A stretch of DNA of 26,751 nt from a virus. The stretch is from the IMG/VR virus record IMGVR_UViG_3300047453_000096, positions 1-26,751 of that record; one strand, given 5' to 3'. Below, piece after piece: positions 6,539-26,687 of the stretch. The first letter of the stretch is position 1, and each line of letters starts with the position of its first letter. A model generated the notes under the pieces. That model searched no databases, was not told the DNA's origin, and saw only the letters and a program-made list of their open reading frames with translations. Made by a program: the position numbers and the translations under genes.

Positions 6539-7678
6539 ATGGATCTTAAATTTACAACAGCAGGAGACTTTTTGAAATCACAAGAAGACATTCAGCGCAT
6601 TGGCTTTGCTTGCAAGTATATGCATCCAGATCAATCGCAGAAAAAGAAATTATTAGAAGAAATCCAACGTCCACTAAATACACGTAGCACAACAGTACAG
6701 TGGCTCAATAGGCAGACACGTGATGTTGCTGAAGAACGCTTGTGGGAACTTATGGTTCATAACATTGCGTCATACAAAAGGTTGATTGAATATGTGGGAT
6801 CTCTTCCACCTGAACTTCGGATGGTTCGACTCGGTTCTGATGTACTTCCTGTTTATACCCAGCACGAGTGGGCTTATTATTGGCAGCTGCCTGACGTGGT
6901 GGCATATTGTGAAAGAGCGTTCGCAGAAGTCGGCGCCACGGCAAGAGCCCTTGATGTGCGACTTTCGATGCATCCAGGTCAGTTCACAGTCCTTGCCAGT
7001 GATAACGAAGAAATTGTAGAACGGAGCATAGAAGAATTTGAATATCACACCAACTGCATCCGCTGGATGGGCTACGGCCAATCCTTCCAAGACTTCAAGT
7101 GCAATGTCCACATATCCGGTCGTCAAGGTCCAGCCGGTATTAAACACGCAGTTGACAACAGACTTTCTCCAGAAGCGAGAAACACGATTACGATCGAGAA
7201 CGACGAGAACAAATGGGGCATCGACGCAAGCCTCGAGCTTGTCGACACCTGCGCATTGGTACTCGATATACACCATCACTGGTGCCGTGAAGGTGAATAC
7301 ATACAGCCCACCGACGATAGATTTGCTCGCGTAATAGATAGCTGGCGTGGTGTGCGTCCTGTAATACATTATTCATACAGTCGCAACGAAGCACTGCCCG
7401 AAGGCTTTGCACACGACACTATGCCCGATATGCCAGCACTACTAGAATCAGGCTACAAGAAAGCAAAACTACGAGCGCACAGTGATTACTATCCTAATCA
7501 ACTTGTTAATGACTGGGCATTGAGCTTTTCGCCTTATGCAGATATTATGTGCGAGAGCAAGTGCAAGAATCTTGCTAGTATTGACTTATATAAATACAAA
7601 GAGGAGATAGAACACTATGAGCTATTTGAGCAAAATGTACGGGAACAAGTCAAAAGCCCCGACCCAATCATCATCTGA
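6539..7678 (+). CDS. uvsE: UV damage endonuclease, UvdE/UvsE family
   Basis: This TIM-barrel endonuclease nicks DNA 5' of UV photoproducts, starting alternative excision repair. The family's histidine and acidic motifs appear in order: SMHPGQFTVLAS (143-154), HISGRQG (191-197), ITIENDE (217-223), DIHHHW (243-248), HYSYS (277-281) and LRAHSDY (311-317). These are the expected metal ligands. At 379 residues the protein is somewhat longer than many bacterial members. The last 20 residues are also coding for the next gene in another frame. Base composition is odd. The ends are AT-rich like the rest of the phage, but roughly 6785-7340 is much richer in G+C (35 of 60 bases at 6901-6960 and again at 7201-7260), with codons such as GCC, GAG and CTC. 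That pattern suggests a recombined core. Confidence 0.9.
   Translation: MDLKFTTAGDFLKSQEDIQRIGFACKYMHPDQSQKKKLLEEIQRPLNTRSTTVQWLNRQTRDVAEERLWELMVHNIASYKRLIEYVGSLPPELRMVRLGSDVLPVYTQHEWAYYWQLPDVVAYCERAFAEVGATARALDVRLSMHPGQFTVLASDNEEIVERSIEEFEYHTNCIRWMGYGQSFQDFKCNVHISGRQGPAGIKHAVDNRLSPEARNTITIENDENKWGIDASLELVDTCALVLDIHHHWCREGEYIQPTDDRFARVIDSWRGVRPVIHYSYSRNEALPEGFAHDTMPDMPALLESGYKKAKLRAHSDYYPNQLVNDWALSFSPYADIMCESKCKNLASIDLYKYKEEIEHYELFEQNVREQVKSPDPIII
7589..7596 (+). promoter_or_regulatory. perfect T4-late octamer TATAAATA inside the UvdE gene
   Basis: This is an exact match to the T4 late consensus. It lies 20 bases before the ATG at 7617, with GAGGAG between, so it should drive the small gene that overlaps the end of the UvdE gene. 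It is the only perfect octamer I found in the window. Confidence 0.75.
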
Positions 7679-8360: not shown

Positions 8361-8738
8361 ATGTCATTTTGTACTTTAACCGATTCAGCTAAAAAGCAGA
8401 TAGATACTATTTGCGAAGAAAATGAAGCCTATGCAGTTACACTTAACATTAAAGGCGGTGGGTGTGCAGGGTTTGAATATGAATGGGGTCTTTATGACAC
8501 TCCAGATGAACTTGAAAAAGACGATGAAGTGTTTAAAACAGATACAGGATGCACTCTTGCAATAGGATCTGCTAGTGTAATGTTCTTAGTCGGAACTCAA
8601 ATTGATTATAAAAAAGATATTATGGGATCGATGTTTGAAATATCAAATCCTAATGCACAAAGCAGTTGCGGTTGTGGAATTAGTGTAAATTTTGATATGG
8701 ATAAACTAGCAACACCTCTAGCAACGCCTGCAGATTAA
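8361..8738 (+). CDS. A-type iron-sulfur cluster carrier (IscA/HesB-like)
   Basis: This 125-residue A-type carrier receives and passes on Fe-S clusters. The three ligand cysteines are present: Cys35 in GGGCAGF (32-38) and Cys103 and Cys105 in SSCGCG (101-106). The family block MGSMFEISNPNA (88-99) sits just before the last pair. The N-terminal helix carries the usual SAKKQI pattern. A short alanine/threonine tail follows the CGCG motif by about 15 residues and is a little longer than in host proteins. Host-like hesB genes are known auxiliary genes of marine T4-like phages. They may support phage enzymes or host photosynthetic or respiratory Fe-S proteins. It overlaps the convergent minus-strand gene by 4 bases. 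Confidence 0.92.
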   Translation: MSFCTLTDSAKKQIDTICEENEAYAVTLNIKGGGCAGFEYEWGLYDTPDELEKDDEVFKTDTGCTLAIGSASVMFLVGTQIDYKKDIMGSMFEISNPNAQSSCGCGISVNFDMDKLATPLATPAD

Positions 8739-9101: not shown

Positions 9102-12100
9102 ATGGCAAGACAAGACGTTAATATCGGTGTTGAGGGTAACGACGGCACCGGCGATAGTATTAGAGAATCGTTTCGTAAAGTAAACGAAAACTTTCAAGAA
9201 GTTTATGCAATTTTTGGACAAAGTGGCACAATTAGCTTCACAGCACTTAGTGATACACCGGATTCATTACTGCCTAGTACAATTCCGTTAGTTAAAGCAG
9301 ACGGCAGTGGCATTGATTTAGTTGAATTTGCATCTAATAATTCTGTAGATTCTACTAAAAATGACACAATTGTATTCAATTATACCATAGGCGGAAAATT
9401 AGTTATCAGTACAGCGTTTACTGAACTAGCAGATGACACTGCTCCAGCTATGAGTGCTCCATTAAACGCTGGCGGCAATGCTATTGCTAATATTGATGTT
9501 AGTGTTCAAAGTGCTCAACAATTTAACGATATTCATAATACAAACATTAACGTTGACGACCTTGTTATTAACAAAGGTTACGCAGATAGACGTTATATTA
9601 GTTCAGGACTGCCTATTAGAGTTGCGCCAGAACCACTAACACAAGATCCATATAAACTTAATATTACACGTTACATTAATGGTGATATTGAAGTAGTTGC
9701 TCACGGCTATGACACAAGTATCAACGGATTAAAATTTGTTTTTAATTCAATTTACGATGATCCAAGTAACTTAGACTCAGAAGTTCTTGCTAATCAAATT
9801 GTAATTGGAAACACATACAAAATTAAAACACTAGGCGATGTTCCTTGGACATCAATTGGTGCTGACTTAGGCGTTGACGGTGAAGTATTCATTGCTACTG
9901 CTACTACATCTGGTACAGGCGTAGTACAGCCAGTTTACTTTTTAAGATATGTTACTGATAACTTTTTATCAGTATTCCTTAGAAGAGAAGATGCAGCTCT
10001 TGTAAATGATACAGAAGCAGATGCAGCTAAAAACTATGTGTCTGGTACAAAAGCAGACGACGATGTACACGAAATGATTGACACAGGTGTTGATGCAACT
10101 TTAGCAGGCAACTACCTAAGCGATGTTGCTATGCCTAGAGACAGCATTGTTCGTAGACAAGGCGATGCTATGGAAGGGCCATTAACACTTTCCGATCACC
10201 CAGGTGACCTTGAAGGATTTGGCAAACCAAACGGCGCAGATGATTTACAAGCAGCTACAAAATTTTATGTTGATAACGCAGGCTACGCATCGACACAAAA
10301 CATATTTGTTAGTTTAGACGGTGATGATAGAATGATTGGTGTGCCTCCGGGCAAAGAAGGTGCATCGTTAAACTACGCTTACCGTACTATTAATGCAGCC
10401 GCACAACGTGCAGAAGAAGTTATCTTAACAGCAGAAGAAGAGCCAGGTCCTTACTTCCAAACAGTTACTAAAGAAGATGGTGCAAGTCCTGCAGAAGTTA
10501 CTGCAACAGAATTTGTTGGTACTGACACTTGGGGCGGACAACAAACAGCCGACTTAATTAGAATCAACAGAGAATATCTATCTAAAGAATTATCAGGATG
10601 GATCAAATATACATTCCCAGATTTTGTTTATGAAATATCAACTTGCGAAAGAGATACGGGATTAATCCTTGATGCTGTTGAATATGATATTCGTAGAGGA
10701 TTGACTGCAAACTTCCTTTCAAGAATTGCAGCAGAAAGATATTACTCAAGTACAAGCGGACGTATTGCAATCACACAACAGAAAACAGAAACTGTTGGTG
10801 CGATTAATCAACTAAAAACAATGACTGATGCAATACTACAAAATAAATTATTCAATGAAAAGAGTATTGATTTTGTTACACTAAGTGGATCTGCTAATGA
10901 ACGTGCTAGAGTACAAACAACTACAGACCACGGCTTAGTAGACGGTGATCACGTTGTATTCAAAGATATGGGCGGTATGGTCGAAATTGAAGGCCAAACT
11001 GCTTATGTTAAAAATATTGAACAAACAGATATTGCATTAGACGGCAAAGTAATTGAACTGTACAAAGACGACAGTTTATTAGAACTATGGGATATCAGTG
11101 CATATACTCCTTATACAGCTGGCGGCAAACTTGGTCAAGTATTCCAAGAGCGTGTAAGAGACTTTGACAGCGTTAAACTAGCACAAACATTTGATGAGCC
11201 AGATGCTGATGCAACTGCAAGACTTGCAATTACAGGTAGTGGCGGTAAGTTTGATCTAATTGTTGATATTATGTCAAATGGCATTAATGCTGGTGCAGAC
11301 ATTGTTTATGGTAGAAACTATAAGATTGTACTAGACAATGGTGCAAGAACATTTGTTGACCAGGGTGATCCAGATAATACTGACTTGCTTCCGGGTAAGG
11401 TAGTAGTAGGTAATATCTCCGGAGCGAAGGGACGTATTGTTAAGGTTATTAATAACGATGGTACAGAAAGTAATAATGACACAATTGAATTACTACAATT
11501 AAATGGTGTTGACTTTGCTCCAAACGAAACTGTAAGATATGGTAACTTTGTTAAAGAAAAGCAAGTTACTATTTTTGTTGAATCAGGTATTTACGAAGAA
11601 GACTTACCAATTAAGATTTCAAACAACGTATCACTAAAAGGTGACGAATTTAGACGAGTAATTATACGTCCTAAGAATCGTGTATCACAATCGCCTTGGG
11701 CTAATACATATTTCTTCCGTGATGCTGATTTTGATGATATGACGTTAGCAACAACAGGTGAACCGTTTGTAAACCAAGTAGGTGATGTACAAGGCTACTT
11801 TGGTAGACACTATCTATCAGACAATACTACAGATATAAACATAGGCGGCATAGTTACAAACCCAGGTAATTACACAACAGCTTCAAAAATTATGCAACTT
11901 AACAAAGCATTTATTCAAGACGAAGTTATTGAGTTTATCAACACAAACAATCCTAGCTTTATATATGATATTGCTAAGTGTAGACGTGATACAGGCTTAA
12001 TTGTAGATGCGCTAGTAAAAGATTTAGTAAGAGGTGGACAAGAGTTTACCATTGAGACACAAGGACAATATCAAGACGCATACATTAGTGAATTTAACAA

Positions 12101-15100
12101 TGACGGATTTGGTGGGCAAGAAGCTATTACACAAAGTGCTATTAATCATATATCAGTACTTGCACAAGACTTATTAAACGCTACAGCACCTGCACAAAAT
12201 GGTGCAACAGTTCCTGATATTTCATTAGGAGCAGGCGAAGCTGGAACTGTAACAATTGCAGACGGTTTAGTCGATCTAGTAAACTTTGCATTCAATGCAG
12301 CATACAATCCTCCTTTACGCAACGATGCACAGGGTATGGATGTGTTTATGATGTCAGATGCTAGTATTTTAAGAAATGCTACAGTACAAGGACACGGCGG
12401 ATTTATGGTTGTACTTGATCCTGAAGGACAAGTTCTAACTAAGTCTCCATACATACAAACAGGATCGTCATTTAGTAAGAGTGACAATGAAAAACGATTT
12501 AGAGGTGGTATGTATGTTGATGCATTTACAGGTAACATTCCTGTAACTATTCCGCAGAACATTAATACTGGTACTTACAACGGAGCAGGTAAACTTAATA
12601 ACTTTGAAATGTGGGTGCAGTCATCTCCAGGTCAAGGTTTGTTTGTTAGACCACCACAATTACCTTGTCCATTCTATGTAGAAGGTAGACGTTATCAAGT
12701 TAACGCTATCTCAGAGTACGATAGTGGAAACGGTTGGTGTAAGATTTTCTTAGACGCAGATTCAAATGACGGTGTTGGTTATGACGAAAGCCAGTTTGAT
12801 GATGGATTGTATTATAGAGATATCTTCTTACAAACTGCTGGTAACAGAAGTATGCTCGGAAACGACTTTACACAAATTAACGATTTAGGATACGGGCTTG
12901 TAACTAACAATGGTGCGTTCTCTGAGATGGTTAGTATGTTTACATACTACTGTCAGGTAGCATACTATGCTAAAAACGGTTCAGAGATTAGATCACTTAA
13001 CGGTTCGAATGGTTATGGTAACTTTGGTTTAGTTGCTGAAGGTGCTGATCCAAACGAGATTCCAGATCAGGTTACACTTAAATACCCAATGGCTGTTCCA
13101 GCAAAAGCATATACTTCAGTTGATACACCAAACGCATTTGAGGATACTACGATATATGTAACTGATATGAGATACCCTCCAAGTGTTAACTCATTGATTA
13201 CTATCGACCACGGCGGAGTAATTGGCGTACTTAACTATGTTATCTCTAATGTAACAAATATATCAGACACTGACAACGATGGACAAGACGGCGAAACAGT
13301 AGGTGATATTGTTGCAGTAGGCGGAACGTATAGTAATGCTGTTTATAAATTAGATCTTAGAGCTGATGAAATTAGTGCTACAGACTTTTTTGGAAGTCTA
13401 AGAGCTACAGTACCTAACGGGGCTTTCATTGAATTTAGAAATAACTTTACACAAATATTTGAAGGAGTAAGAGATCCTTCAAAACTTGTAACTCGTCCTT
13501 CAACAGCAATTAACTATGATGAATCAGATGACGCAACATATAGAAGTTTAGTATTCCAAGCAGCTGACACATTTGCACAACCATTAGCAAACGACGAAGT
13601 TTTAACAGGATTAGAAATTGGATACAACTTTGTATCTCCTGAAATTGATACTGGAAACTTAGGCGGCGGATATGGTTCTGCACAAGGCGATGATAAAATT
13701 GCAATTAAGCCGCTTGATGCTGACAGAGCATTAAGAATAACTAGAGACGTTGCAGGCAAACAGCCCGGAGATGCAGGATACGCAGGCGGAATGGTGTTTA
13801 CTTGGCAAGGTAAATTACATCAAGTAACAGATTACAACGACAGTGGTGCGTTTGTGTTTATTAATATAGCAGACCAAGGTACTAATATTAGTAGTTACTC
13901 ACCGGCTGGTATTAGTACTGGTATAAGTGCTAGTGATAGAGTTTTAAATTGTGGTCTTAATATTGGCGCTACAGCAGAAATTACTATTGCTATTTCATTA
14001 TGTAGAGCAACAGGACACGACTTTACACAAATTGGTACTGGCGGATTTAACGATTCAAACTATCCAAATGTTATTTTAGGTGATCCTGAAAATAACTTAG
14101 CGGCTGCATACACTGATGGCGCAACAGCAATATCATCACAAGTTTGGGAAAGACGTAAAGGACGAGTATTTTGGATGTCAACAGACCAAAATGGTTTCTT
14201 CCGTGTTGGTAAGTTCTTTAGTGTAGACCAAGCAACAGGTGATATTACATTTGCTGGTGAAATTGGTATTTCAAATGCTAACTCATTAGGATTTAAACGT
14301 GGTGTTACAATTAACGAATTTAGTGCTGATGATTCAATGTCTGATAACTCAGGCCAAGCTACACCGACAGAAAAAGCTGTAGTAGGTTACATCAATCGTG
14401 TACTAGGTTGGAACGTTGCTGCAGGCTCACAAATTCAAACAGCACCAGCAGGAAATAGAATTGGCGTTGGCTTCCTTCCATTAAATGGTAATAGTACTAT
14501 GGAAGGTGATATTGATATGGGTTCAAATCAAATCACTAATGTAGCATTACCAGGTGTTGACGGAACAGCAGCAGCGAACAAAAATTATGTAGATGATAAA
14601 GTTAACGACTATGATCAATTAGAAGATTTAAGAAACATTGAATTTAACAGTATTGCATCAGACGATATTATTGTTGCTACTGGTAAGAAAAGAATTGTAG
14701 TTGATTTAACTTCAGGTGGTAACTGGACAACAGGCACTGTTATTGGATTATTAAATAGCGGATCAAAAGCAGGTACCATTGTTGACATTGAGTCTATAAC
14801 TGACTCGTTGTTAGGCAACAAATTAATGGTTACATACACAGCTACAGCAGGTGTATTTAATATAGGCGAAACCCTGTACGATAAACCAGGACAGAGTATT
14901 TTTGGAACAATTATAGACGGACCAATTGATGAAGTTGCAAACGCAAGCGAAGCCGCAGCAAGTGATATTAATGTTACAGTTACTAGAACAGCAAGTGGAG
15001 CAGAATACAACTTACAATACGAAGCTGACAGCCTTATTGATAACGATGTTAAGAGTAACGCAGGTATACGTCAAAGTAAATTGCTTATGCAAGCCGCAGA

Positions 15101-16880
15101 TACATTTGTTGAGTCAACTGGATGGACAGGTGCAAAAGCACAAGCTGACTTAGGACTTGCTAAATTTAGTGCAGATAACTTTAATACAAGTGACGGCTTT
15201 GTAAGAATTAAAAACAACGGTGTTGTTTTTGCAGAAATACCTGATTTAACACAATACAAAGTTTATGGTAGAACAGCAAGCGGTTCAGGTGATGCTAGTG
15301 CAGTTTCGTTCTCAGACATTGCAAAATTTGGTGCAGGTATAGAGGATAAGGACTTTACTAGTAGAGAATGGTCTGACCCAGCTCTTACTAAATTAGTGTT
15401 TACTAGTGGCGTATCAGTTAATGACGGTGATACTCTTACCCAAGGTAGTGCAAGTGGTACTGTACAAGGTAAAGTAAATAATGAAACTACTGTCTACGTA
15501 AGCAGTGTTACAAATACTTTTAACACATCAAACAATGTACTTAACACAACACAATCAAATACATCAATAGGTACACCAACCACTGCACAAGCTGTAACTG
15601 AACGTGGTGCAGCAATGATTAGATTGGGTGAAGGAGTTTACGCAACAACTAGTATATCAAGTGGGACAGCAGCAGACACTATTGTTAGAAGAGGCGGCAG
15701 TGGCGAAGTTGATGCAGCTAAAATTAAAGTTGGCGGCTTTGATACTATTGCATTAAGTAGTACAACAATTACGTTTAAAACTCCAGGTACTGCTACAGTA
15801 TTTGAAGCAACTGGTAACACAAGTGCAGACTTGCAAGTTAAAGTGCCAGGACACTTAGTACTAGGCGGCATTACAAACAGTGGTGGAAACTTTGTTGAAT
15901 CAGCAGCTAAATCAGGATCAACTAGCTTTGATGATGGAAGTTATGTTGCATCTAGTTGGATGTACACAAACTTCATCGAAGCAGCGAGCGAATCAGGAGG
16001 CACAGCAGCTAATACAACAGGTATTGGCCTAGGTGATGGTAATGGATTTACTGGCGATGCAGCAGATACTATCTTACTAATTGCCAAAGGTGCTCCAAGA
16101 GTAACTATTAAAGAGACTACTACTACAGTTGAAAACAACTTAAAGGTAGACGGCACCTGCGTAGTTGATGGACAAACTACTATTAATGACAGTTTATTAA
16201 TAAATTCTGCTAATGAAGTATTTAGAATTAGAAACGGTGTTAACAGCACTAATAGATTCCTTGTTGACTCCGACAATGGTAATACTACTATTGCAGGAAC
16301 AATTACAGTTGGAGGGTTAGCACAATTTAACGGTAGTGTTAACTTAGGTGATGCCGCAAGTGACACAGTTACATTTGTTGCAGATGTTGACAGTAACATT
16401 ATTCCAGATGGTAACGGTACTCGTAACTTAGGTGCAAGTGGATCACGTTGGAATACTGTATATGGTAACACACTTAGTGGTGTTGCTACAACAGCAAAAT
16501 ACGCTGACTTAGCAGAGAACTATGTAGGTGACGAAGCATACGAGCCAGGCACTGTTGTTGTGTTTGGCGGCGAAGCTGAAGTAACTACAACAACAACTAA
16601 AGGTGATCGTAGAGTAGCAGGCGTTGTTTCAACTGATCCAGGGTTCTTAATGAACTCAGAGTTAGATACGGTAAATACTGTAGCAATAGCATTACAAGGG
16701 CGTGTTCCGTGTAAAGTAATTGGATCAGTATTTAAAGGGGATATGCTAGTAGCAAGTGCAATACCTGGATATGCAATGGTAGACAATGATCCAAAAATAG
16801 GTACAGTTATAGGCAAGGCTGTAGAAACAAAATTAGACCCTGATAAGGGCGTAGTTGAAGTAGTTGTAGGAAGAACATAA
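9102..16880 (+). CDS. giant modular tail-fibre/adhesin protein (2592 aa)
   Basis: This is the largest gene in the window and is probably a distal fibre or baseplate-attached adhesin. Residues 1-40 hold an attachment-like module, GNDGTGDSIRESFRKVNENF, shared with two later genes. FVSLDGDD and a YRTINAAAQRAEEV helix begin at about 402. A cysteine-containing module, CERDTGLILDAVEYD (515-529), recurs as CRRDTGLIVDALVKD (960-974). Between them, FVESGIYEEDLPIKISNNV (about 825-843) looks like a pectate-lyase-type beta-helix start. A GFFRVGKFFSVDQATG module falls near 1700. The last 160 residues begin NLGASGSRWNTVYG (about 2440) and continue AKYADLAENYVGDEAYEPGTVV. I recall this ending from marine phage fibres, where it may be a trimerising or self-cleaving cap. 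It overlaps the next start by one base (TAATG). Confidence 0.8.
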   Translation: MARQDVNIGVEGNDGTGDSIRESFRKVNENFQEVYAIFGQSGTISFTALSDTPDSLLPSTIPLVKADGSGIDLVEFASNNSVDSTKNDTIVFNYTIGGKLVISTAFTELADDTAPAMSAPLNAGGNAIANIDVSVQSAQQFNDIHNTNINVDDLVINKGYADRRYISSGLPIRVAPEPLTQDPYKLNITRYINGDIEVVAHGYDTSINGLKFVFNSIYDDPSNLDSEVLANQIVIGNTYKIKTLGDVPWTSIGADLGVDGEVFIATATTSGTGVVQPVYFLRYVTDNFLSVFLRREDAALVNDTEADAAKNYVSGTKADDDVHEMIDTGVDATLAGNYLSDVAMPRDSIVRRQGDAMEGPLTLSDHPGDLEGFGKPNGADDLQAATKFYVDNAGYASTQNIFVSLDGDDRMIGVPPGKEGASLNYAYRTINAAAQRAEEVILTAEEEPGPYFQTVTKEDGASPAEVTATEFVGTDTWGGQQTADLIRINREYLSKELSGWIKYTFPDFVYEISTCERDTGLILDAVEYDIRRGLTANFLSRIAAERYYSSTSGRIAITQQKTETVGAINQLKTMTDAILQNKLFNEKSIDFVTLSGSANERARVQTTTDHGLVDGDHVVFKDMGGMVEIEGQTAYVKNIEQTDIALDGKVIELYKDDSLLELWDISAYTPYTAGGKLGQVFQERVRDFDSVKLAQTFDEPDADATARLAITGSGGKFDLIVDIMSNGINAGADIVYGRNYKIVLDNGARTFVDQGDPDNTDLLPGKVVVGNISGAKGRIVKVINNDGTESNNDTIELLQLNGVDFAPNETVRYGNFVKEKQVTIFVESGIYEEDLPIKISNNVSLKGDEFRRVIIRPKNRVSQSPWANTYFFRDADFDDMTLATTGEPFVNQVGDVQGYFGRHYLSDNTTDINIGGIVTNPGNYTTASKIMQLNKAFIQDEVIEFINTNNPSFIYDIAKCRRDTGLIVDALVKDLVRGGQEFTIETQGQYQDAYISEFNNDGFGGQEAITQSAINHISVLAQDLLNATAPAQNGATVPDISLGAGEAGTVTIADGLVDLVNFAFNAAYNPPLRNDAQGMDVFMMSDASILRNATVQGHGGFMVVLDPEGQVLTKSPYIQTGSSFSKSDNEKRFRGGMYVDAFTGNIPVTIPQNINTGTYNGAGKLNNFEMWVQSSPGQGLFVRPPQLPCPFYVEGRRYQVNAISEYDSGNGWCKIFLDADSNDGVGYDESQFDDGLYYRDIFLQTAGNRSMLGNDFTQINDLGYGLVTNNGAFSEMVSMFTYYCQVAYYAKNGSEIRSLNGSNGYGNFGLVAEGADPNEIPDQVTLKYPMAVPAKAYTSVDTPNAFEDTTIYVTDMRYPPSVNSLITIDHGGVIGVLNYVISNVTNISDTDNDGQDGETVGDIVAVGGTYSNAVYKLDLRADEISATDFFGSLRATVPNGAFIEFRNNFTQIFEGVRDPSKLVTRPSTAINYDESDDATYRSLVFQAADTFAQPLANDEVLTGLEIGYNFVSPEIDTGNLGGGYGSAQGDDKIAIKPLDADRALRITRDVAGKQPGDAGYAGGMVFTWQGKLHQVTDYNDSGAFVFINIADQGTNISSYSPAGISTGISASDRVLNCGLNIGATAEITIAISLCRATGHDFTQIGTGGFNDSNYPNVILGDPENNLAAAYTDGATAISSQVWERRKGRVFWMSTDQNGFFRVGKFFSVDQATGDITFAGEIGISNANSLGFKRGVTINEFSADDSMSDNSGQATPTEKAVVGYINRVLGWNVAAGSQIQTAPAGNRIGVGFLPLNGNSTMEGDIDMGSNQITNVALPGVDGTAAANKNYVDDKVNDYDQLEDLRNIEFNSIASDDIIVATGKKRIVVDLTSGGNWTTGTVIGLLNSGSKAGTIVDIESITDSLLGNKLMVTYTATAGVFNIGETLYDKPGQSIFGTIIDGPIDEVANASEAAASDINVTVTRTASGAEYNLQYEADSLIDNDVKSNAGIRQSKLLMQAADTFVESTGWTGAKAQADLGLAKFSADNFNTSDGFVRIKNNGVVFAEIPDLTQYKVYGRTASGSGDASAVSFSDIAKFGAGIEDKDFTSREWSDPALTKLVFTSGVSVNDGDTLTQGSASGTVQGKVNNETTVYVSSVTNTFNTSNNVLNTTQSNTSIGTPTTAQAVTERGAAMIRLGEGVYATTSISSGTAADTIVRRGGSGEVDAAKIKVGGFDTIALSSTTITFKTPGTATVFEATGNTSADLQVKVPGHLVLGGITNSGGNFVESAAKSGSTSFDDGSYVASSWMYTNFIEAASESGGTAANTTGIGLGDGNGFTGDAADTILLIAKGAPRVTIKETTTTVENNLKVDGTCVVDGQTTINDSLLINSANEVFRIRNGVNSTNRFLVDSDNGNTTIAGTITVGGLAQFNGSVNLGDAASDTVTFVADVDSNIIPDGNGTRNLGASGSRWNTVYGNTLSGVATTAKYADLAENYVGDEAYEPGTVVVFGGEAEVTTTTTKGDRRVAGVVSTDPGFLMNSELDTVNTVAIALQGRVPCKVIGSVFKGDMLVASAIPGYAMVDNDPKIGTVIGKAVETKLDPDKGVVEVVVGRT

Positions 16881-18322
16881 TGACAAACAGAATACCACTT
16901 ATAGTAGATACCGCAGACGGCAATAAAATTAAAGAACTACCAAGCGGAGATGCACTAAACTTAGTAGGATCTGCAATTGTTGATGCTACAAGCATCTCAA
17001 CTACAGGAACAGTAACATCGTCTGTAATAAACACAGCATCGATTAATGTTAACGGATCGCCAATAGCAGCGGTAGCATTAAGCGGCAACTTTGATGATTT
17101 AGATAATGTTCCAGTTGGGTTTAGCGGTGACTATGACGACTTAACTAACAAGCCAACTATTCCAATACACTTAGAATCATTGTTCAATGTAGGAAATATT
17201 ACACCAACAGATGGGCAAGGTCTTAAATGGAGCAGTATTAATAACCAATGGGAGCCAGGTAGCGTTGTAGCAGATATTGATCTAAGCGTAAGAAATATAC
17301 AAGAATTACAAAACGTTATTGTTACTGGTCCTGTAGATAATAAGTTTCTTAAATATTATGCAGGAGCGTGGAGAGCTTCAACTGTTACATATAGCGAAGT
17401 ACAAAATGCTCCTACTGCACTAAGTCAGTTAATTAACGATGTAGGGTATATTACTGTACCAGGATCTGCTCAAACACTAAGCGTAACAGGCGGCGAGTTA
17501 TCTATTAGCGACGGTAATACAGTTGACATAGCCCAAACAATAAGTTATGATGGAACTAGTTTGGCATTGTCTGATTCAAACACTATTGAAACTAATACCC
17601 TTGATGTTAATTTTAGAAAAGTAAACACTACAGCAGGCGTAGTTGGTGATGTAACAGGATCATTATTTGCTGATGATAGCACATTACTAGTAGACGGTAT
17701 AAATGGCACAATTCCTAGTCCAACAATTGAAGGCGAAATGCAATGGCTCGGTGCAGGCAATGACGATCTTACAAAAATATACGCAAGCCAAGGTAGAATA
17801 GTAGCTGAAAACTTAGGTACTAGAGCATTGAATCTAAGAGCATTCAATCCATTGTCAAGTCTTTGGAGCGACAATGGTGTTAGTTTATCAGTAAATATCG
17901 ACCAATCAGTTTTTACTCAGTCAAGACAACTAAGAATTAAAGATGAGGGTGCAGGTCAAGGGTTACAATCAGTAACAATACTAGGCAGCAAATATACAAT
18001 TGGTGCCAATACTGAAAACTGGACTAAACTTTACTTAGGTGGATTGTCAGATGCTCCAGAACAAATCGGCGGAGTTATACCAGACGAGAAATCACACATA
18101 TATAGGTTTGCAAAAGGTTGGTTTGAAACTATTGACACAGACGCATTAATTATTAATGCAGATATTGAATTAAAAGGCAACTTAGTTAGTGACGACAGTA
18201 CTTTGCTAATTGATGGTGCTACCGGAACTATCCCAGGATATGTAAGTTTAGCAACACTCAAGACAGAAGTAGCAGCAGCAACAGATTTTGCAGACTTCCA
18301 AACTAGGATTGCAGCACTTTAA
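16880..18322 (+). CDS. fibre-like virion protein with internal repeat (480 aa)
   Basis: The start is coupled to the giant fibre gene through TAATG. The N-terminus IPLIVDTADGNKIKELPSGD matches a recurring opening of marine myovirus fibre proteins. GNFDDLDNVP (79-88) and GDYDDLTNKP (93-102) are a tandem of the common DDLxNxP fibre repeat. A second repeat pair, DDSTLLVDG-NGTIP (from 265) and DDSTLLIDG-TGTIP (from 438), lies 173 residues apart, implying duplication of a shaft unit. The protein is rich in Asn, Ser, Thr and Val without cysteine-rich or catalytic motifs. All 11 arginines use AGA or AGG, which contrasts sharply with the replication genes. The role is structural by context. The partner is probably the preceding fibre. 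Confidence 0.72.
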   Translation: MTNRIPLIVDTADGNKIKELPSGDALNLVGSAIVDATSISTTGTVTSSVINTASINVNGSPIAAVALSGNFDDLDNVPVGFSGDYDDLTNKPTIPIHLESLFNVGNITPTDGQGLKWSSINNQWEPGSVVADIDLSVRNIQELQNVIVTGPVDNKFLKYYAGAWRASTVTYSEVQNAPTALSQLINDVGYITVPGSAQTLSVTGGELSISDGNTVDIAQTISYDGTSLALSDSNTIETNTLDVNFRKVNTTAGVVGDVTGSLFADDSTLLVDGINGTIPSPTIEGEMQWLGAGNDDLTKIYASQGRIVAENLGTRALNLRAFNPLSSLWSDNGVSLSVNIDQSVFTQSRQLRIKDEGAGQGLQSVTILGSKYTIGANTENWTKLYLGGLSDAPEQIGGVIPDEKSHIYRFAKGWFETIDTDALIINADIELKGNLVSDDSTLLIDGATGTIPGYVSLATLKTEVAAATDFADFQTRIAAL

Positions 18323-19104: not shown

Positions 19105-21609
19105 ATGACAATTTGGACACAACGATCAGGCAGCAAACTTGCACAACTTCAGGAACGTATTACTACTACAGTTCCATTACCAGTAGATTCTTTAGCTACT
19201 GTTAAATTACTTAGTGGCGAACTGCCAAAAGGTATGAGGCTTAACGGAAACATTATCGAAGGTACTCCGTTTGAAGTAGCAAGAGATACAACTTACAGAT
19301 TTGTGTTACGAGCAAAACTTGACGCAGCAGTTGAAGATAGAACATATAATATTGTAGTACAAGGGCCAGACGAGCCGCTATGGATTACTAAAGAAGGTTT
19401 GTTAGACATTGGATCTAACAGCACGTTTTATATCTTAGACAGCACTCCAGTTGAATACCAATTTCAAGTAATAGATAATGATACTAGCTCAGGACAAACA
19501 CTAACATACTTCCTTGGTGCTGATTCAGGTGAATTGCCACCAGGTATCACATTAACACGAGACGGTAGACTTATTGGTGTAGTTGATCCTGTACTTGCAT
19601 TAGAAAAGAATGCACGTAGTGGATTATATGACGAAAGTCAATTTGATAGAAACCCTTATGATTTTAGTGTGCAAAGCGCACAAGGCTTTGATAGTTTTTA
19701 CTATGATATAACAATTTATGATTTTGCAACACCAACACAAGTACCTAAAAAACTAAACCGATTTTATCAATTTATTGTAAGTGTAACCGACGGCGATACA
19801 ACAGCACAGCGCACATTTAGAATATACGTTGTAGGTGATGATTTCCTACGTGCAGATAACACAATTATGCAAGTTGGATCAGGTATCTTTAGTGCAGATA
19901 ATACGCACATCAGAACACCAATATGGCTAACACCAAGTGACTTAGGTGTTCGTCGTGCAAACAACTACATTACATTATTCTTAGATATTGTTGACCCTAA
20001 CAGTTTAACTGGTTACACATATTACGAATTAAAGTCTACTAACGATGATAACAGTGTTAGTACACTTCCGCCTGGAATGTCCTTGGATGCACAAACAGGT
20101 GAAGTATCTGGCTTAGTACCTTATCAGCCTGCTGTAACAAAGGAATATAAATTTACTGTAAATGCAGTACGTGTTACTGGTGGTAGTACTGAAAGCACTG
20201 AAACACAAAAAACTTTTAAAGTTTTACTGCTAGGCGAAGTCAATAGTAATATTAATTGGGTTACTCCAGATGATTTAGGCGATATTAATTCAAACTTTTT
20301 ATCTACCTTAAGTGTTGTAGCAACTAGTGATGTACCTGATGCATTTGTACTTTATTCATTAGAATCAGGATCACTTCCGCCAGGATTAGAATTAGCATAT
20401 GATGGCGAAATAATTGGTAAGATTAATAACTTTGGGTCGCCAACACAACTTGGTCTAACAGTATTTGATAGTGCAAACTTATCTCTAGACGGGAACACTA
20501 CAACTGTTGATAGATCATATACGTTTACAGTACGAGCTCAAGATCATTTTGGATATAGTGCAACTACTAGAACGTTCACTATAAAAGTAGCTGACCCGGA
20601 TGACAAATTATATACAGATATATACTTTTCACCTTTGCTAAAGACAGAACAAAGAATTACATTTAATAACTTTGTAAGAGATGATGCAATATTTCCAAAC
20701 CAATTAATTTACAGACCAAATGACCCTGCGTTCGGTCTTCCTAAAGATATTAAATTACTAGTGTATTCAGGTATAGAATCTAAACTAGCAGAACAATATG
20801 TTGCAGCGTCAGCTCTTACAACCAAACGTAAAAATTATAAAATTGGTGATTTAAAAACAGCAGTTGCAAAGTTGCCTGGAACAAATGAAATAGTATACGA
20901 AGTAGTATATTTGGATGTTAAAGATCCTTACGAAAGTACTGGCAAAGTTGCAGAATCAATTACCATTAAGAATAATGCTAAAATTTTAGTTAACAGTGTA
21001 AGAACTGATCCAAGTGATCTTAAGTATGACACTAGCACATTAACTAGAATAGAAATAAATGCAAGAAACGGATTAATTTTTGTAGAACCTAATAGAAAAA
21101 GTTTAACTATAGGTACACGCCAAGGCGATGTTGAATGGGAATTTGGAACTGATATATACTTAGACACTAGAACAGATAGTGTAGAAATTACAACAAAAGG
21201 AACACCTAGCAATAACTTGGCTGCTAGACCTTCACCAGTAGAAAACACTATCCGTACTGATATAGATGCTATCAAAGTAAGTGACCCTAATAAAATTACA
21301 AAATATATCAGTAATATAAGTAATGTTAGACGTAAGTTTAGTCAGCTAGGAAGAACTGAAAGAAACTTTTTACCGTTGTGGATGCGTACAGCACAACAAG
21401 ATAGCATACAAGAACTAGGATATACGTTGGCAATACCTCTTTGCTATTGTAAACCTGGCACAAGTGAAACTATTAAGGCTGCAATTAATTTTAGTCAATT
21501 TGACTACAGACAATTTGAGCTAGATATTGATAGATTCTTAATAGACAATACCGAAGGTGTTGGCGAACCTAAATACTTCGTATTTGCTAACTACGAGTTA
21601 AATATATAA
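19105..21609 (+). CDS. virion protein with Ig-like (He_PIG) repeats (834 aa)
   Basis: This probable baseplate or fibre-connector protein has at least four He_PIG-type repeats, each marked by LPxGhxLxxxGxIxG. They are ELPKGMRLNGNIIEG (39-53), ELPPGITLTRDGRLIG (143-158), TLPPGMSLDAQTGEVSG (320-336) and SLPPGLELAYDGEIIG (423-438). Each is followed by beta strands ending in a YxFTVxAxD-type string, as in cadherin- or Ig-like folds. Residues 500-834 lack the repeat and look globular, with FNNFVRDDAIFPNQLIYRP near 514. The start has CGGAG 9 bases upstream. Ig-like repeats in phage virions usually mediate weak surface binding or form rod segments. Here the N-terminal WTQRSGSKL suggests the attachment end. 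Confidence 0.75.
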   Translation: MTIWTQRSGSKLAQLQERITTTVPLPVDSLATVKLLSGELPKGMRLNGNIIEGTPFEVARDTTYRFVLRAKLDAAVEDRTYNIVVQGPDEPLWITKEGLLDIGSNSTFYILDSTPVEYQFQVIDNDTSSGQTLTYFLGADSGELPPGITLTRDGRLIGVVDPVLALEKNARSGLYDESQFDRNPYDFSVQSAQGFDSFYYDITIYDFATPTQVPKKLNRFYQFIVSVTDGDTTAQRTFRIYVVGDDFLRADNTIMQVGSGIFSADNTHIRTPIWLTPSDLGVRRANNYITLFLDIVDPNSLTGYTYYELKSTNDDNSVSTLPPGMSLDAQTGEVSGLVPYQPAVTKEYKFTVNAVRVTGGSTESTETQKTFKVLLLGEVNSNINWVTPDDLGDINSNFLSTLSVVATSDVPDAFVLYSLESGSLPPGLELAYDGEIIGKINNFGSPTQLGLTVFDSANLSLDGNTTTVDRSYTFTVRAQDHFGYSATTRTFTIKVADPDDKLYTDIYFSPLLKTEQRITFNNFVRDDAIFPNQLIYRPNDPAFGLPKDIKLLVYSGIESKLAEQYVAASALTTKRKNYKIGDLKTAVAKLPGTNEIVYEVVYLDVKDPYESTGKVAESITIKNNAKILVNSVRTDPSDLKYDTSTLTRIEINARNGLIFVEPNRKSLTIGTRQGDVEWEFGTDIYLDTRTDSVEITTKGTPSNNLAARPSPVENTIRTDIDAIKVSDPNKITKYISNISNVRRKFSQLGRTERNFLPLWMRTAQQDSIQELGYTLAIPLCYCKPGTSETIKAAINFSQFDYRQFELDIDRFLIDNTEGVGEPKYFVFANYELNI

Positions 21610-22481: not shown

Positions 22482-23012
22482 ATGCTTATGAAAACTGACG
22501 ACTTAGGAATACCACGATTCTCTAATAAAGATCTAGTAGATATGATCTATAGTGGCAATGTTGAAAAATGTCACGTAGTTCTATGCGAAGAATCAGATGA
22601 TGTAGATAAGTTCAATGTCGCTATGGAAGAACAAGGCTTTGATAAACTACAAAAATATATTCCATTAGATGTAGATCAACAAACTTTTGACGGTGTATGT
22701 CAAAGTGAATGGTTTATGCCTGATGAATACAAAGACATCAATGTATATGAATATGTACTAGGCAAAGCAAAAACACCCTGCCCACAACACGTACAAGATC
22801 GTATATGGGAAGAAATGGAAGCATATGGCGAACGTGATATGCATAATCTATTACGCTATATGATTTATCTTGTAGACTTTATGCGTGAGAATAACATTGT
22901 ATGGGGTGTAGGTAGAGGTAGCTCTGTAGCATCATATGTGCTATATTTAATAGGTGTACACAAGATTAATTCAATCCAGTTTGGCCTGGATTGGCGAGAG
23001 TTCTTGAGATAA
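22482..23012 (+). CDS. orphan DNA polymerase III alpha-like fragment
   Basis: Residues 107-176 of this 176-residue protein align by eye with the piece of bacterial DnaE that joins the PHP domain to the palm. They show a helix RIWEEMEAYGERD, a region LLRYMIYLVDFMRENNI, then GVGRGSSVASYVLYLIG (142-158), equivalent to GPGRGSAAGSLVAYLLG. The protein ends at WREFLR, where DnaE has FERFLN. The catalytic aspartates, which follow in DnaE, are absent. The N-terminal 100 residues have no visible PHP histidine motifs. The GS motif is therefore kept without polymerase chemistry. It may bind nucleotide or another polymerase subunit. Starts at 22482 and 22488 are both possible. I recall similar genes in marine T4-like phages. 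Confidence 0.72.
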   Translation: MLMKTDDLGIPRFSNKDLVDMIYSGNVEKCHVVLCEESDDVDKFNVAMEEQGFDKLQKYIPLDVDQQTFDGVCQSEWFMPDEYKDINVYEYVLGKAKTPCPQHVQDRIWEEMEAYGERDMHNLLRYMIYLVDFMRENNIVWGVGRGSSVASYVLYLIGVHKINSIQFGLDWREFLR

Positions 23013-23790: not shown

Positions 23791-24147
23791 ATGACAAACG
23801 TATTTAGAGATATTGACACATTCGCTGTGGCTTGTGATCAGCCACCAAGTGAAGAAAACTACAAAATGTATCTTGATTTGATCCGTGAAGAAACGGATGA
23901 ATTAGAAGAAGCCATCCAAGACAACGACAAAGTCGAACAGCTCGATGCACTAGTAGACATCTTAGTTGTTACTATGGGTGCAATACGTGCCGCAGGCTGG
24001 GACGGAGAAGCGGCCTGGAAAGAAGTAATGGACACAAACTTTGCTAAAATTGATCCAACCACAGGCAAAGTAATCAAACGTGAAGATGGTAAGGTACTCA
24101 AACCAGAAGGTTGGAAAGCCCCTGAATTGGCACAATTTATCAAATAA
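23791..24147 (+). CDS. mazG: MazG-like nucleotide pyrophosphohydrolase
   Basis: This 118-residue all-alpha NTP pyrophosphatase belongs to the MazG/PRA-PH superfamily. The metal-binding pattern is present: EExxE at 33-37 (REETDELEEAI) followed by ExxD at 49-52 (EQLDALVD). It would hydrolyse (d)NTPs or alarmone-type nucleotides to monophosphates and so tune nucleotide pools during infection. The C-terminal half contains WDGEAAWKEVMDTNFAKID, a helix seen in PRA-PH-like members, and ends GWKAPELAQFIK. AAGGA precedes the ATG, which lies 2 bases after the co-chaperonin stop. Substrate choice cannot be read from the sequence. Confidence 0.85.
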   Translation: MTNVFRDIDTFAVACDQPPSEENYKMYLDLIREETDELEEAIQDNDKVEQLDALVDILVVTMGAIRAAGWDGEAAWKEVMDTNFAKIDPTTGKVIKREDGKVLKPEGWKAPELAQFIK

Positions 24148-24153
24148 AAACTC

Positions 24154-24182
24154 TTGACTTTTGTCCTCTATCCTGCTATAAT
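24154..24182 (+). promoter_or_regulatory. strong extended sigma70-type promoter for tRNA-Arg and replication genes
   Basis: TTGACT (24154-24159), a 17-base spacer and TATAAT (24177-24182) with TG at 24174-24175 make the best bacterial promoter in the window. Transcription should start near 24189, ten bases before the tRNA, and continue into the dexA-like gene and the clamp-loader operon. No terminator is visible between. Confidence 0.88.
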
Positions 24183-24198
24183 TAATGTAAATTAACGA

Positions 24199-24275
24199 GC
24201 GGCTGTAGCTCAGCTGGATAGAGCACAAGTTTGCGGAACTTGAGGTCAGGGGTTCGACTCCCTTCAGCCGCGCCA
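24199..24275 (+). tRNA. tRNA-Arg (anticodon GCG), CCA encoded
   Basis: A full cloverleaf can be drawn. The acceptor stem is 24199-24205 with 24265-24271. The D stem is GCTC/GAGC around AGCTGGATA. The anticodon stem is 24226-24230 with 24238-24242, and the loop TTGCGGA puts GCG at 24233-24235. The variable loop is five bases, and the T stem is 24248-24252 with 24260-24264, containing one G-U pair. The discriminator is G24272 and CCA is encoded at 24273-24275. A20, C35 and G73 are the arginine identity elements. GCG would decode CGC and CGU. Bacteria normally use ACG for this box, so the anticodon is unusual. Confidence 0.95.
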
Positions 24276-24290
24276 AAAGAGGAAAATAAA

Positions 24291-24833
24291 ATGGCTACAC
24301 ACGGGATGATTGACCTAGAAACCCTAGGAGTAGAACCTGATAGTGTTGTAATGACATTAGGTGCTATTAAGTTTGATCCTTTTACAGACAACGAGCCCCA
24401 CAGTCCAATATATTTGCGAGGAGATATTGAGGATCAGACTAACAACTTTGATCGTTCAATTGATGATAATACGTTAGCCTGGTGGAGCAAACAACCACAA
24501 GAAATTCAAGACGAAGCATTTGGGGATCACGACGATCGTGTTACTGTTCCTGAAATGTTAAAAGTATTAAACAAATGGTGTGTAGGTTTAGATTACATTT
24601 GGTGTCAAGGTCCTACATTTGATTTTGTAATACTACAGCATCTATATAAAGAAGCAGAAACACCAGTACCGTGGAACTTCTGGCAAATTAGAGATAGTAG
24701 AACATTGTTTGCTATGATGCCAAGTGATCCACGTAAAGCAATACAAGAAAGTTTACATAATGCACTTGCTGATTGTTATTATCAAGCAAAATGCGTACAG
24801 CAGTCTTACAAGCACTTTGGAGTAACTAGATGA
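24291..24833 (+). CDS. dexA: DexA-like 3'-5' exonuclease (DEDDh)
   Basis: This 180-residue DnaQ-fold exonuclease is related to T4 exonuclease A (DexA). Exo I is MIDLETLG (6-13; Asp8, Glu10). Exo II is TFDFVIL (109-115; Asp111). Exo III is HNALADCYYQA (156-166; His156, Asp161), so the four carboxylates and the general-base histidine of the DEDDh class are all present. It is shorter than T4 DexA (227). The ATG at 24291 has AGAGGA upstream. A longer in-frame start would read through the tRNA and is rejected. It lies 15 bases after the tRNA in the same transcript. Likely roles are degradation of host DNA or end processing. Confidence 0.88.
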   Translation: MATHGMIDLETLGVEPDSVVMTLGAIKFDPFTDNEPHSPIYLRGDIEDQTNNFDRSIDDNTLAWWSKQPQEIQDEAFGDHDDRVTVPEMLKVLNKWCVGLDYIWCQGPTFDFVILQHLYKEAETPVPWNFWQIRDSRTLFAMMPSDPRKAIQESLHNALADCYYQAKCVQQSYKHFGVTR

Positions 24834-25213
24834 AAATAGGCCTTAGCCTAAGTCGATGTATTCGTGATATATTTACTGGTGCAGTTGAAGAAAATGATGT
24901 ATTGGTAATTATTGCTCGTACAGATTTTGATCCGCACAATGATAATCATTGGAATAATATTTGGGAAGGTTATACACAGGGCGGATTAAGTAGAGCTGAA
25001 TGGGCAGACTTTAGAGATGAATATGTTTCTTTTAGGCGCCTAGCACTAGAATTATACGATGATGGCAAAATACATCAGCCACGACATTATGGTGCTCACC
25101 CACCACGGTTGCCATATCATTGGTTAGATTGTGTTGTAAGACCACAAGAACACAATCCAGCACAGGCCAAAGCGTGGCAAAATTATTTAACTATTACGGA
25201 TTTATCAAAATGA
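24830..25213 (+). CDS. conserved hypothetical protein (127 aa)
   Basis: Coupled to the exonuclease gene by an ATGA overlap. No known domain is recognised. The first 35 residues, IGLSLSRCIRDIFTGAVEEN followed by DVLVIIART, look like a helix then a buried strand. WNNIWEGYTQGGLSRAEW (41-58) is tryptophan-rich. RHYGAHPPRLPYHWLDCV (85-102) is rich in histidine and proline. The sequence is soluble in character, with no membrane segment. I recall similar proteins near replication genes in other T4-like phages, but no function is known to me. Confidence 0.7.
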   Translation: MKIGLSLSRCIRDIFTGAVEENDVLVIIARTDFDPHNDNHWNNIWEGYTQGGLSRAEWADFRDEYVSFRRLALELYDDGKIHQPRHYGAHPPRLPYHWLDCVVRPQEHNPAQAKAWQNYLTITDLSK

Positions 25214-25422
25214 TAAAAGATGATACAGATAATCCTTGGGCTGTTATGATATGCCTTGATGGTAAAGATGATTGGATTTTTGTAACCGAAGACACTGGCA
25301 AATGTGATTGGGAATTAAAGCCTGTATTGTTTAACGATATTAATGATGCATTATTGTTTGCTGACCAATACGTAATTAGTGGTAAAGAAGAGAATGTTCA
25401 AGTAGTAACATACGATAGATAG
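25210..25422 (+). CDS. small hypothetical protein (70 aa)
   Basis: The start at 25210 overlaps the previous stop as ATGA. A longer in-frame ATG at 25120 is rejected because it would overlap the previous gene by 94 bases. The 70 residues are acidic and rich in tryptophan, aspartate and valine (DNPWAVMICLDGKDDWIFVT, then FNDINDALLFADQYVISG). The strand-strand-helix alternation suggests a compact alpha/beta unit. No family recognised. It sits in the early operon upstream of the clamp loader. Confidence 0.65.
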   Translation: MIKDDTDNPWAVMICLDGKDDWIFVTEDTGKCDWELKPVLFNDINDALLFADQYVISGKEENVQVVTYDR

Positions 25423-25433
25423 AAAGAAGTAAT

Positions 25434-25616
25434 ATGACACCAGAACCTAAAGATATAGATGACGAAACAAAAAGATTAGTAAAAGAGTACCTTGACAAGG
25501 GCGGAAAGATAACACACTATAAAAGTGGGGAAAGGTCTGAAGAAATTGATTTCAAAGGCGGCTTTTATCAAAGACGTAAAAGAAAGAAAGAAGAAAAAGA
25601 GGGGAAAAATGGTTAG
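25434..25616 (+). CDS. small basic protein (60 aa)
   Basis: The N-terminal part (DIDDETKRLVKEYLDKGGKI) is a charged helix leading to a GGKITHYKSGERS turn. The C-terminus is strongly basic (QRRKRKKEEKEGKNG). This is a common layout in small phage proteins that bind nucleic acid, but no proof is visible. It overlaps the next small membrane gene by 8 bases. The Shine-Dalgarno (AGAAG) is weak. Confidence 0.6.
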   Translation: MTPEPKDIDDETKRLVKEYLDKGGKITHYKSGERSEEIDFKGGFYQRRKRKKEEKEGKNG

Positions 25617-25773
25617 ATGGTATGATTGGATAGCGGCAGTAGTATATGCATATCTTATTATGTATTTCTTCTTTACAATTCCTATCTTCGGTGCTATAAT
25701 AGCATATATGATATACGAATACTTATGGGGACACGTATACTGTCAATATAGATTACAACAGGAAAACAGATGA
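25609..25773 (+). CDS. small membrane protein (54 aa)
   Basis: The ATG at 25609 is chosen because GAGGGG lies 5 bases upstream. The longer in-frame ATG at 25525 would duplicate the coding of the previous gene. Residues 7-40 are hydrophobic (YDWIAAVVYAYLIMYFFFTI, then IFGAIIAYMIYEYLW). They form either one long or two tightly spaced membrane helices, with a short charged tail. It overlaps the clamp-loader start by 4 bases (ATGA), so it is part of the replication operon. Function unknown. Confidence 0.65.
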   Translation: MVRWYDWIAAVVYAYLIMYFFFTIPIFGAIIAYMIYEYLWGHVYCQYRLQQENR

Positions 25774-26687
25774 AAGAATTATGGGTAGAAAAGTATCGTC
25801 CGAAAACAGTAGATGGTTATGTATTCCGTGACGAAGCACAGCGCAGTCAAGTAAAGACTTGGATTAAAGACAAAACTATTCCGCATTTGCTGTTTAGTGG
25901 TAACGCAGGTATTGGTAAAACAACACTTGCTAAATTGTTGTTTAATGAACTAGAAGTTAATGACTTAGATGTACTTGAGATTAACGCAAGTCGTACAAAC
26001 TCAGTAGATGATGTGCGTGATAAGATTGTTAACTTTGTACAGATGATTCCATTTGGTGACTTTAAAGTTGTGTTGCTAGATGAGGCTGATTACTTGAGTC
26101 CAAACGCACAAGCGGCATTGCGTGGTGTAATGGAGGAGTATCATACAACAGCACGTTTTATTCTAACGTGTAACTATCCTAACAGAGTTATTCCTGCACT
26201 ACACAGCAGATGTCAAGGCTTCCATATTGCTAAGATTGATCAAACAGAGTTTACAGCAAGAGTTGCAGAGATTCTTATTACAGAAGGTGTAACTCCGGAC
26301 TTAGACGTACTAGATACGTATGTAAAGGGTACATACCCGGACTTGCGTAAGTGTATTAACACAGTGCAAATGAATAGCGTAGATGGCGTCTTAAACAAGC
26401 CCAATGAAGGTGATACAGGCGAAAGCGACTGGAAACTTGAAATGGTTGAACTGTTTAAGGCAGGCAAGATTCAAGCGGCACGTAAATTGTTGTGCGGTGC
26501 AATCCGTCCAGAAGAAATGGAAGAAGTGTATCGTTGGTTATATGACAACATTGAACTGTTTGGAGATGATGCACAACAAGACCAAGCAGTGCTTGTTATT
26601 AAGCAAGGTCTAGTAGATCATACACTAGTTGTAGATCCAGAGATTAACTTGGCAGCAGTACTAATCAAACTAGCGAGACTTCAATGA
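25770..26687 (+). CDS. 44: sliding-clamp loader large subunit (gp44-like)
   Basis: This AAA+ ATPase of 305 residues loads the phage sliding clamp (T4 gp44 is 319). The opening VEKYRPKTVDGYV (6-18) is the RFC-type box. Walker A is GNAGIGKT (44-51). Walker B is VVLLDEAD (100-107). The sensor and SRC arginine-finger region follow at ILTCNYPNR (131-139) and SRC (146-148). The collar helices at about 220-305 complete the fold. Arginine codons are 10 CGT, 1 CGC and 4 AGA. The partner small subunit gp62 should follow in the T4 order, but the next start does not look like gp62. Confidence 0.93.
   Translation: MKELWVEKYRPKTVDGYVFRDEAQRSQVKTWIKDKTIPHLLFSGNAGIGKTTLAKLLFNELEVNDLDVLEINASRTNSVDDVRDKIVNFVQMIPFGDFKVVLLDEADYLSPNAQAALRGVMEEYHTTARFILTCNYPNRVIPALHSRCQGFHIAKIDQTEFTARVAEILITEGVTPDLDVLDTYVKGTYPDLRKCINTVQMNSVDGVLNKPNEGDTGESDWKLEMVELFKAGKIQAARKLLCGAIRPEEMEEVYRWLYDNIELFGDDAQQDQAVLVIKQGLVDHTLVVDPEINLAAVLIKLARLQ

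Follow-up and report, generated by a model that had tools for sequence, protein, structure and literature searches.

The window considered here is a 26.7-kb fragment of viral DNA (positions 1–26,751 of the IMG/VR record IMGVR_UViG_3300047453_000096; all positions below are in window numbering). It carries a gene for tRNA-Arg with the anticodon GCG (24199–24275, + strand), and its genes differ in whether they encode arginine by CGY (CGC or CGT) or by AGA and AGG. The tRNA is not the cause of this codon split, which is present in related phages independently of the tRNA. The joint explanation that best accounts for the observations, and that we consider probable, is that a functional, exchangeable tRNA and an independent, family-wide codon split exist side by side. 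To judge from its gene content, which includes a gp39/gp52-like topoisomerase, a gp44-like clamp loader, a tail/fiber gene of 2592 amino acids (aa) and auxiliary genes, the window is a piece of a large T4-like phage genome.

In the window, the gp52-like topoisomerase subunit (614–1942, +) encodes 17 of its 21 arginines by CGY (14 CGT and 3 CGC) and the gp44-like clamp loader (25770–26687, +) 11 of 15 (10 CGT and 1 CGC), and the C-terminal part of the gp39-like subunit (54–611, +) uses CGY at 5 of 5. A fiber-like gene (16880–18322, +) has 9 AGA, 2 AGG and no CGN codon at its 11 arginines. An earlier reading made from the sequence alone (the sequence-only reading) had placed the tRNA beside a split between replication and fiber genes, and its counts for gp52, the clamp loader and gene 16880 proved exact. 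The split itself is beyond chance: gp39, gp52 and gp44 together use CGY at 33 of 41 arginines, and the six tail/fiber genes at 48 of 170 (Fisher p = 1.2e-9). However, a complete lack of CGY is atypical of the fiber class, which includes the 2592-aa tail/fiber protein (9102–16880, +; 28/92) and an 834-aa tail-region protein (19105–21609, +; 12/41); gene 16880 differs from the other fiber genes only at p = 0.035 and is the extreme of its class. The accessory genes (31/90) are likewise distinct from gp39/52/44 (p = 1.4e-6) and do not differ from the tail/fiber genes (p = 0.32), so the contrast is one of core or host-promoter genes against the rest rather than of replication against fiber genes as such. 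Leucine, glutamate, glutamine and lysine codons also differ between gp39/52/44 and the tail/fiber genes, with arginine differing most (V = 0.44).

The nearest named relatives of the window are distant. Its gp52 is 42% identical to that of Vibrio phage Va1 and its gp44 56% identical to that of Pseudomonas phage PA5oct and its kin, and megablast matched the window to none of the named phages; the close relatives are viral contigs, with gp44 identities of up to 96%. A marine origin for the window phage and its kin is suggested by its sequence neighbors, marine Vibrio phages. Four large relatives, with no CGN-reading tRNA found in any of them, span 165–275 kb (275 kb for G001, 180 kb for G002 and 170 kb for G004). 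The CGY fraction of replication genes exceeds that of all genes in G001 (0.68 versus 0.41), G002 (0.63 versus 0.44), G004 (0.59 versus 0.43) and G006 (0.41 versus 0.24), and also in Va1 (0.60 versus 0.45), whose own tRNAs were left out of the tRNA scan. Relative to Markov-1 random sequence, near-consensus sigma-70-type promoters are enriched 4–5-fold in G001 and G002 and about twofold in G004 and G006. The genes directly behind them have higher CGY fractions than the other genes in G001, G002 and G004 (0.54–0.62 against 0.38–0.42) and avoid AUA. When only genes of 150 aa or more are counted, CGY is used more often behind such promoters than elsewhere in G001 (0.55 versus 0.38, p = 5e-12), G002 (0.64 versus 0.41, p = 2e-12) and G004 (0.55 versus 0.41, p = 2e-4), codon-level p-values that assume independent codons and are hence too small; the per-gene test gives p = 6e-5, 1.5e-4 and 0.014, respectively. 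Isoleucine AUY shows the same direction (0.80 versus 0.69 in G001, 0.87 versus 0.65 in G002 and 0.75 versus 0.69 in G004), and arginine and isoleucine are the strongest or near-strongest codon families in this contrast. Synonymous codon use differs genome-wide between the promoter classes in G001, G002 and G004, and not in G006. CGY use therefore follows gene class and promoter class across the large relatives, and in this respect the sequence-only reading holds. Some late genes are CGY-rich as well, namely gp18 in G001 (27/42) and gp23 (18/18) and gp18 (17/20) in Va1, so a conserved early/late division is not the whole axis of the split. As a late-gene test, 16 relatives were searched for the gp23 and sheath families, with few matches.

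The tRNA gene proposed in the sequence-only reading was called by ARAGORN and by Rfam RF00005 (67.6 bits), and its anticodon GCG lies at 24233–24235. It is canonical, with an encoded CCA and the discriminator G. Across 12 different tRNA-Arg sequences from phages, all 252 cells are paired and 18 of the 21 pairs have changed on both sides, against 81% paired cells and 6.9 double-changed pairs in shuffled controls. The fold is under strong selection. A20 and C35 are established as arginine identity elements for Escherichia coli arginyl-tRNA synthetase (ArgRS), and both are invariant in all 12 sequences (A20 and C36 in alignment numbering). A cloverleaf with compensatory changes, a CCA end and arginine identity elements are all found, as in a tRNA-Arg gene, and point to a functional phage tRNA that would be charged and used in decoding. 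Its anticodon loop, UUGCGGA, differs from the loop CUACGAA of the ACG form at positions 32, 34 and 37; since 32 and 37 differ too, an A34-to-G substitution alone does not turn the ACG form into the GCG form. No paper on a phage tRNA-Arg(GCG) was found in the literature searched.

The tRNA occupies a slot between a promoter and an exonuclease gene. The sigma-70-type promoter (24154–24182, +) lies about 16 nucleotides (nt) upstream of the tRNA and consists of TTGACT, a 17-nt spacer and TATAAT, matching the consensus at 11 of 12 positions, with TG before the −10 element. The same promoter arrangement precedes the slot tRNA in every relative read. Only 15 nt separate the end of the tRNA from the ATG of a DexA/Rv2179c-like 3′-5′ exonuclease of 180 aa (24291–24833, +; Pfam PF16473, E 5e-35; PHROG 255 exonuclease, E 1e-49), and a Shine-Dalgarno-like GAGGA (24279–24283, +) can be read between the two. 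The exonuclease, which uses CGY at only 3 of its 7 arginines, is probably cotranscribed with the tRNA. Upstream of the slot lies a MazG/PRA-PH-like gene (23791–24147, +; Pfam PF01503, PF03819).

Among relatives that bear the exonuclease, the commonest state of the slot is without a tRNA. The slot holds a GCG tRNA in L036, L057, L098, L099, L109, L110 and L144, and an ACG tRNA in its place in L069, L100 and L101. The exonucleases of L057 and L069 fall in a divergent clade (~51% identity), which implies either an old slot or one that has been filled more than once. A sequence pattern for the window tRNA retrieved 22 viral contigs with a near-identical GCG tRNA, and three settings were seen: the exonuclease slot, the main tRNA cluster of the relatives (4–8 kb upstream of gp52), and a position alone behind a promoter before another open reading frame. 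One identical GCG tRNA sequence occurs in all three, and G013 has, in a fourth setting, a GCG tRNA built on a different tRNA scaffold. The slot tRNA is one member of a set that is gained, lost, moved and exchanged among large marine T4-like phages. Clusters of tRNAs are present in G001, G002, G010, G016, G022 and G023; G001 has ten tRNAs, of which only tRNA-Arg(TCT) is for arginine, G002 has twenty with none for arginine, and no tRNAs were found in G004 and G006. A small cluster in G001 (L185, G001:C1:224553-224800) contains a CAT tRNA with the Ile2-like loop CTCATAA, an Arg(TCT) and a Leu(TAA) tRNA, that is, decoders for AUA, AGA and UUA, codons avoided by host-promoter genes. ARAGORN also reported two tRNAs in L203 (G008:C1:63123 and 63982), a possible suppressor with the anticodon TTA, which would decode TAA, and one whose anticodon (gtag) is ambiguous.

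The bearing of the tRNA on the split can be judged from these differences in tRNA status. The pooled odds ratio for arginine is 1.89 in carriers of the GCG tRNA, 2.08 in carriers of the ACG tRNA and 2.07 in phages without a CGN-reading tRNA. With the same split and odds ratio in the absence of the tRNA, the split belongs family-wide to host-promoter and conserved genes, and not to this tRNA. Arginines were further aligned with those of the nearest non-carrier over all shared genes. At these sites the seven slot carriers show a small CGY excess (mean log ratio 0.29; random sets P = 0.036), but the shift of glutamate GAG, a codon outside the reading of this tRNA, is larger (0.62, P < 0.001), and the cluster carriers shift the opposite way (−0.35). 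On our reading, the tRNA brings no arginine-specific gain in CGY. The codons that it reads are not enriched because of it, or where it is present. The sequence-only reading had suggested that the phage brings its own decoder for early genes; the early part of this suggestion is supported, in that the near-consensus sigma-70-type promoter fits early expression, but the link to codon use is not.

Several points weigh against a split that is independent of the tRNA. Clamp-loader CGY is 0.72 with a slot tRNA and 0.59 without (n = 6 versus 66, p = 0.004), which could reflect a weak tRNA effect or shared ancestry; we did not read it as a tRNA effect, because the wider aligned-site test shifts glutamate GAG more. 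The AT-rich G006 shows no promoter-class split and is divided by replication class only. The records of the large relatives are incomplete, so that a CGN-reading tRNA may have escaped view, and genes were called by a simple longest-ORF (open reading frame) rule.

In the joint explanation, host RNA polymerase would transcribe the tRNA early, starting at the tRNA's own sigma-70-type promoter and continuing through the DexA-like exonuclease gene. Host RNases would cut out the tRNA and host ArgRS would charge it. It would read CGC and CGU without inosine editing by TadA, and would probably top up, or else replace, the host tRNA-Arg(ICG). The split, for its part, is a property of genes behind host-type promoters and of genes with conserved or abundant products, which avoid AGA/AGG, AUA and partly UUA, codons that are rare in proteobacterial hosts; tail and accessory genes do not avoid them. 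The driver may be the host tRNA pool during early translation, as avoidance of AGA/AGG and AUA behind host-type promoters is expected if these genes are translated with an intact proteobacterial tRNA pool.

Among the alternatives, the one that survives best treats the tRNA as a depletion-proof replacement. The host would cut or limit its own tRNA-Arg(ICG), and the phage tRNA would read the same codons with a loop that escapes host anticodon nucleases. Loop changes comparable to those at positions 32, 34 and 37 have been proposed to evade anticodon nucleases in the tRNAs of mycobacteriophages (PMC10264068), and these phages keep or reacquire the tRNA in several settings whatever their codon use. 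On the other hand, the slot of L069, L100 and L101 contains an ordinary ACG loop, and UUGCGGA is itself the ordinary loop of cellular tRNA-Arg(GCG) and need not be an escape mutation. We regard such a role as possible rather than likely.

A second alternative, which we consider unlikely, explains the split by gene ancestry and mutation bias, with fiber genes acquired or fast-evolving and new arginines arising from lysine AAA as AGA. In gp44, gp52, groES, mazG and gene 23040, CGY prevails at conserved arginines and is lower at variable ones (0.92 versus 0.31 in gp52 and 0.66 versus 0.37 in gp44), a pattern that fits either selection for accuracy or recent lysine-to-arginine change, and the leucine UUA, glutamate, lysine and glutamine families shift too. 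However, in 28 homologs the tail gene 19105 is rich in AGA whether the arginine is conserved or variable (CGY 0.24 versus 0.21), so gene class matters by itself, and the promoter-class link, which holds with the 150-aa minimum gene length, is strongest in arginine and isoleucine AUA rather than in all families. The equal standing that the sequence-only reading had given to different gene ancestry is weakened accordingly by gene 19105. Codon compensation, the earlier proposal that tRNA-Arg(GCG) speeds CGY-rich early genes and that its supply shaped the split, is very improbable: it would unite the early-type promoter, the CGY decoder and the CGY-rich replication genes, and would agree with the clamp loaders of slot carriers, but it is opposed by the unchanged odds ratio without the tRNA, by the aligned sites, by the few CGY codons of the gene cotranscribed with the tRNA, by the abundant ICG tRNA that a CGY-preferring host would already have, and by the Arg(TCT), Leu(TAA) and Ile2-like CAT tRNAs of G001, which decode the other codon class.

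The tRNA of the joint explanation resembles those of T4-like and jumbo phages, such as Xanthomonas phage XacN1 with its 56 tRNA genes (PMC5852040), in being canonical with a CCA end, in belonging to sets that vary between close relatives, and in occurring in clusters. Unlike them, the window tRNA stands alone behind its own promoter, before an exonuclease gene, and has the anticodon GCG; its four best matches among the tRNAs of named phages have TCT or ACG anticodons. Bacteria mostly read the CGN box with ACG and inosine, as the sequence-only reading had it, and tRNA-Arg(GCG) replaces the ACG form in Mollicutes (PMC3711424). Yet at least 79 contigs of bacteria or archaea, including Spirochaetes, Saccharibacteria, Chloroflexi and some SAR324, carry a native tRNA-Arg(GCG) whose loop is likewise TTGCGGA. 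The window tRNA shares with cellular tRNA-Arg(GCG) the loop UUGCGGA and A20 in the D loop, but the best match among those listed agrees at 56 of 72 positions (SAR324), and the phage relatives use either GCG or ACG in the same slot. SAR324, the source of the best bacterial match, was considered as a host and dropped; of the 52 genomes in that class, no more than 4 match the GCG pattern. Differences in synonymous codons between temporal gene groups are already known from phages (Mioduser et al., 2017, PMC5683454; Shigella phage Sf14, PMC12482277), and the present family resembles these cases. Unlike them, the split here is tied to promoter type, is strongest in arginine AGA/AGG and isoleucine AUA, and was tested across relatives with and without the matching tRNA.

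The slot may in addition contain an RNA switch. In relatives without the tRNA, the slot promoter and the promoter of a neighboring small gene are nested in an inverted repeat, whose left arm (ACTCCT...) lies at and after the −35 element and whose right arm (...AGGAGT) is the Shine-Dalgarno sequence. The arm sequences vary between phages and their complementarity is kept (L120:9945, L058:9407, L130:9787, L010:8059, L151:9946, L160:9947, L003:8097 and others). Arms of at least 10 nt are found in 23 of 227 promoters with a following Shine-Dalgarno sequence and start codon, against 1.05 expected when promoter halves are re-dealt, and because the 23 include related phages, they represent a smaller number of independent events. 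A hairpin of the G002 type folds at −25.3 kcal/mol (z = −6.4). Such a nested repeat predicts a silent read-through RNA, in which the Shine-Dalgarno sequence is hidden, and an active RNA from the inner promoter. In the window itself, the promoter-spacer segment GTCCTCTATCCTGC (24163–24176, +) is complementary at 12 of 14 positions to the D arm of the tRNA (24213–24226). In a read-through RNA the native tRNA fold would be lost by 9.7 kcal/mol, a gap that 0 of 300 shuffled upstream sequences reach. Six other slot tRNAs have distinct flanks; five of them do not show the pairing, and L372, which is of the same lineage, shows it clearly; in a single lineage it may have arisen by chance. We tentatively suggest that the slot could act as a nested-promoter switch, in which read-through RNA hides the Shine-Dalgarno sequence in tRNA-less relatives or misfolds the tRNA in the window lineage, and RNA started inside is free. 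The start sites of T4 e, soc, 49 and I-TevI are hidden in longer transcripts and freed by initiation inside, from late promoters in the case of e and I-TevI (PMC3014915, PMC2988022). Unlike these late promoters, that of the candidate switch is a host-type promoter of the sigma-70 kind. If true, the logic of T4 gene e, soc and I-TevI would be extended to host-type promoters and to a tRNA.

Other genes of the window were also recorded. A UvsE-like UV endonuclease gene (6539–7678) has 45.5% GC inside a window of 38% GC and is probably a recent arrival. QueD-like and Fe-S assembly (IscA/HesB-like) genes lie at 4552–5001 and 8361–8738, and a short protein of 176 aa (22482–23012) contains only the DNA polymerase III alpha NTPase domain (PF07733).

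The tRNAs of phages are often explained by codon usage. The family described here provides a natural control for such explanations, because the same split occurs with the GCG tRNA, with the ACG tRNA or without any CGN-reading tRNA. A decoder that lies beside a matching codon bias is thus no evidence of cause, and in several of these phages the genes behind host-type promoters are tuned away from AGA and AUA on their own.

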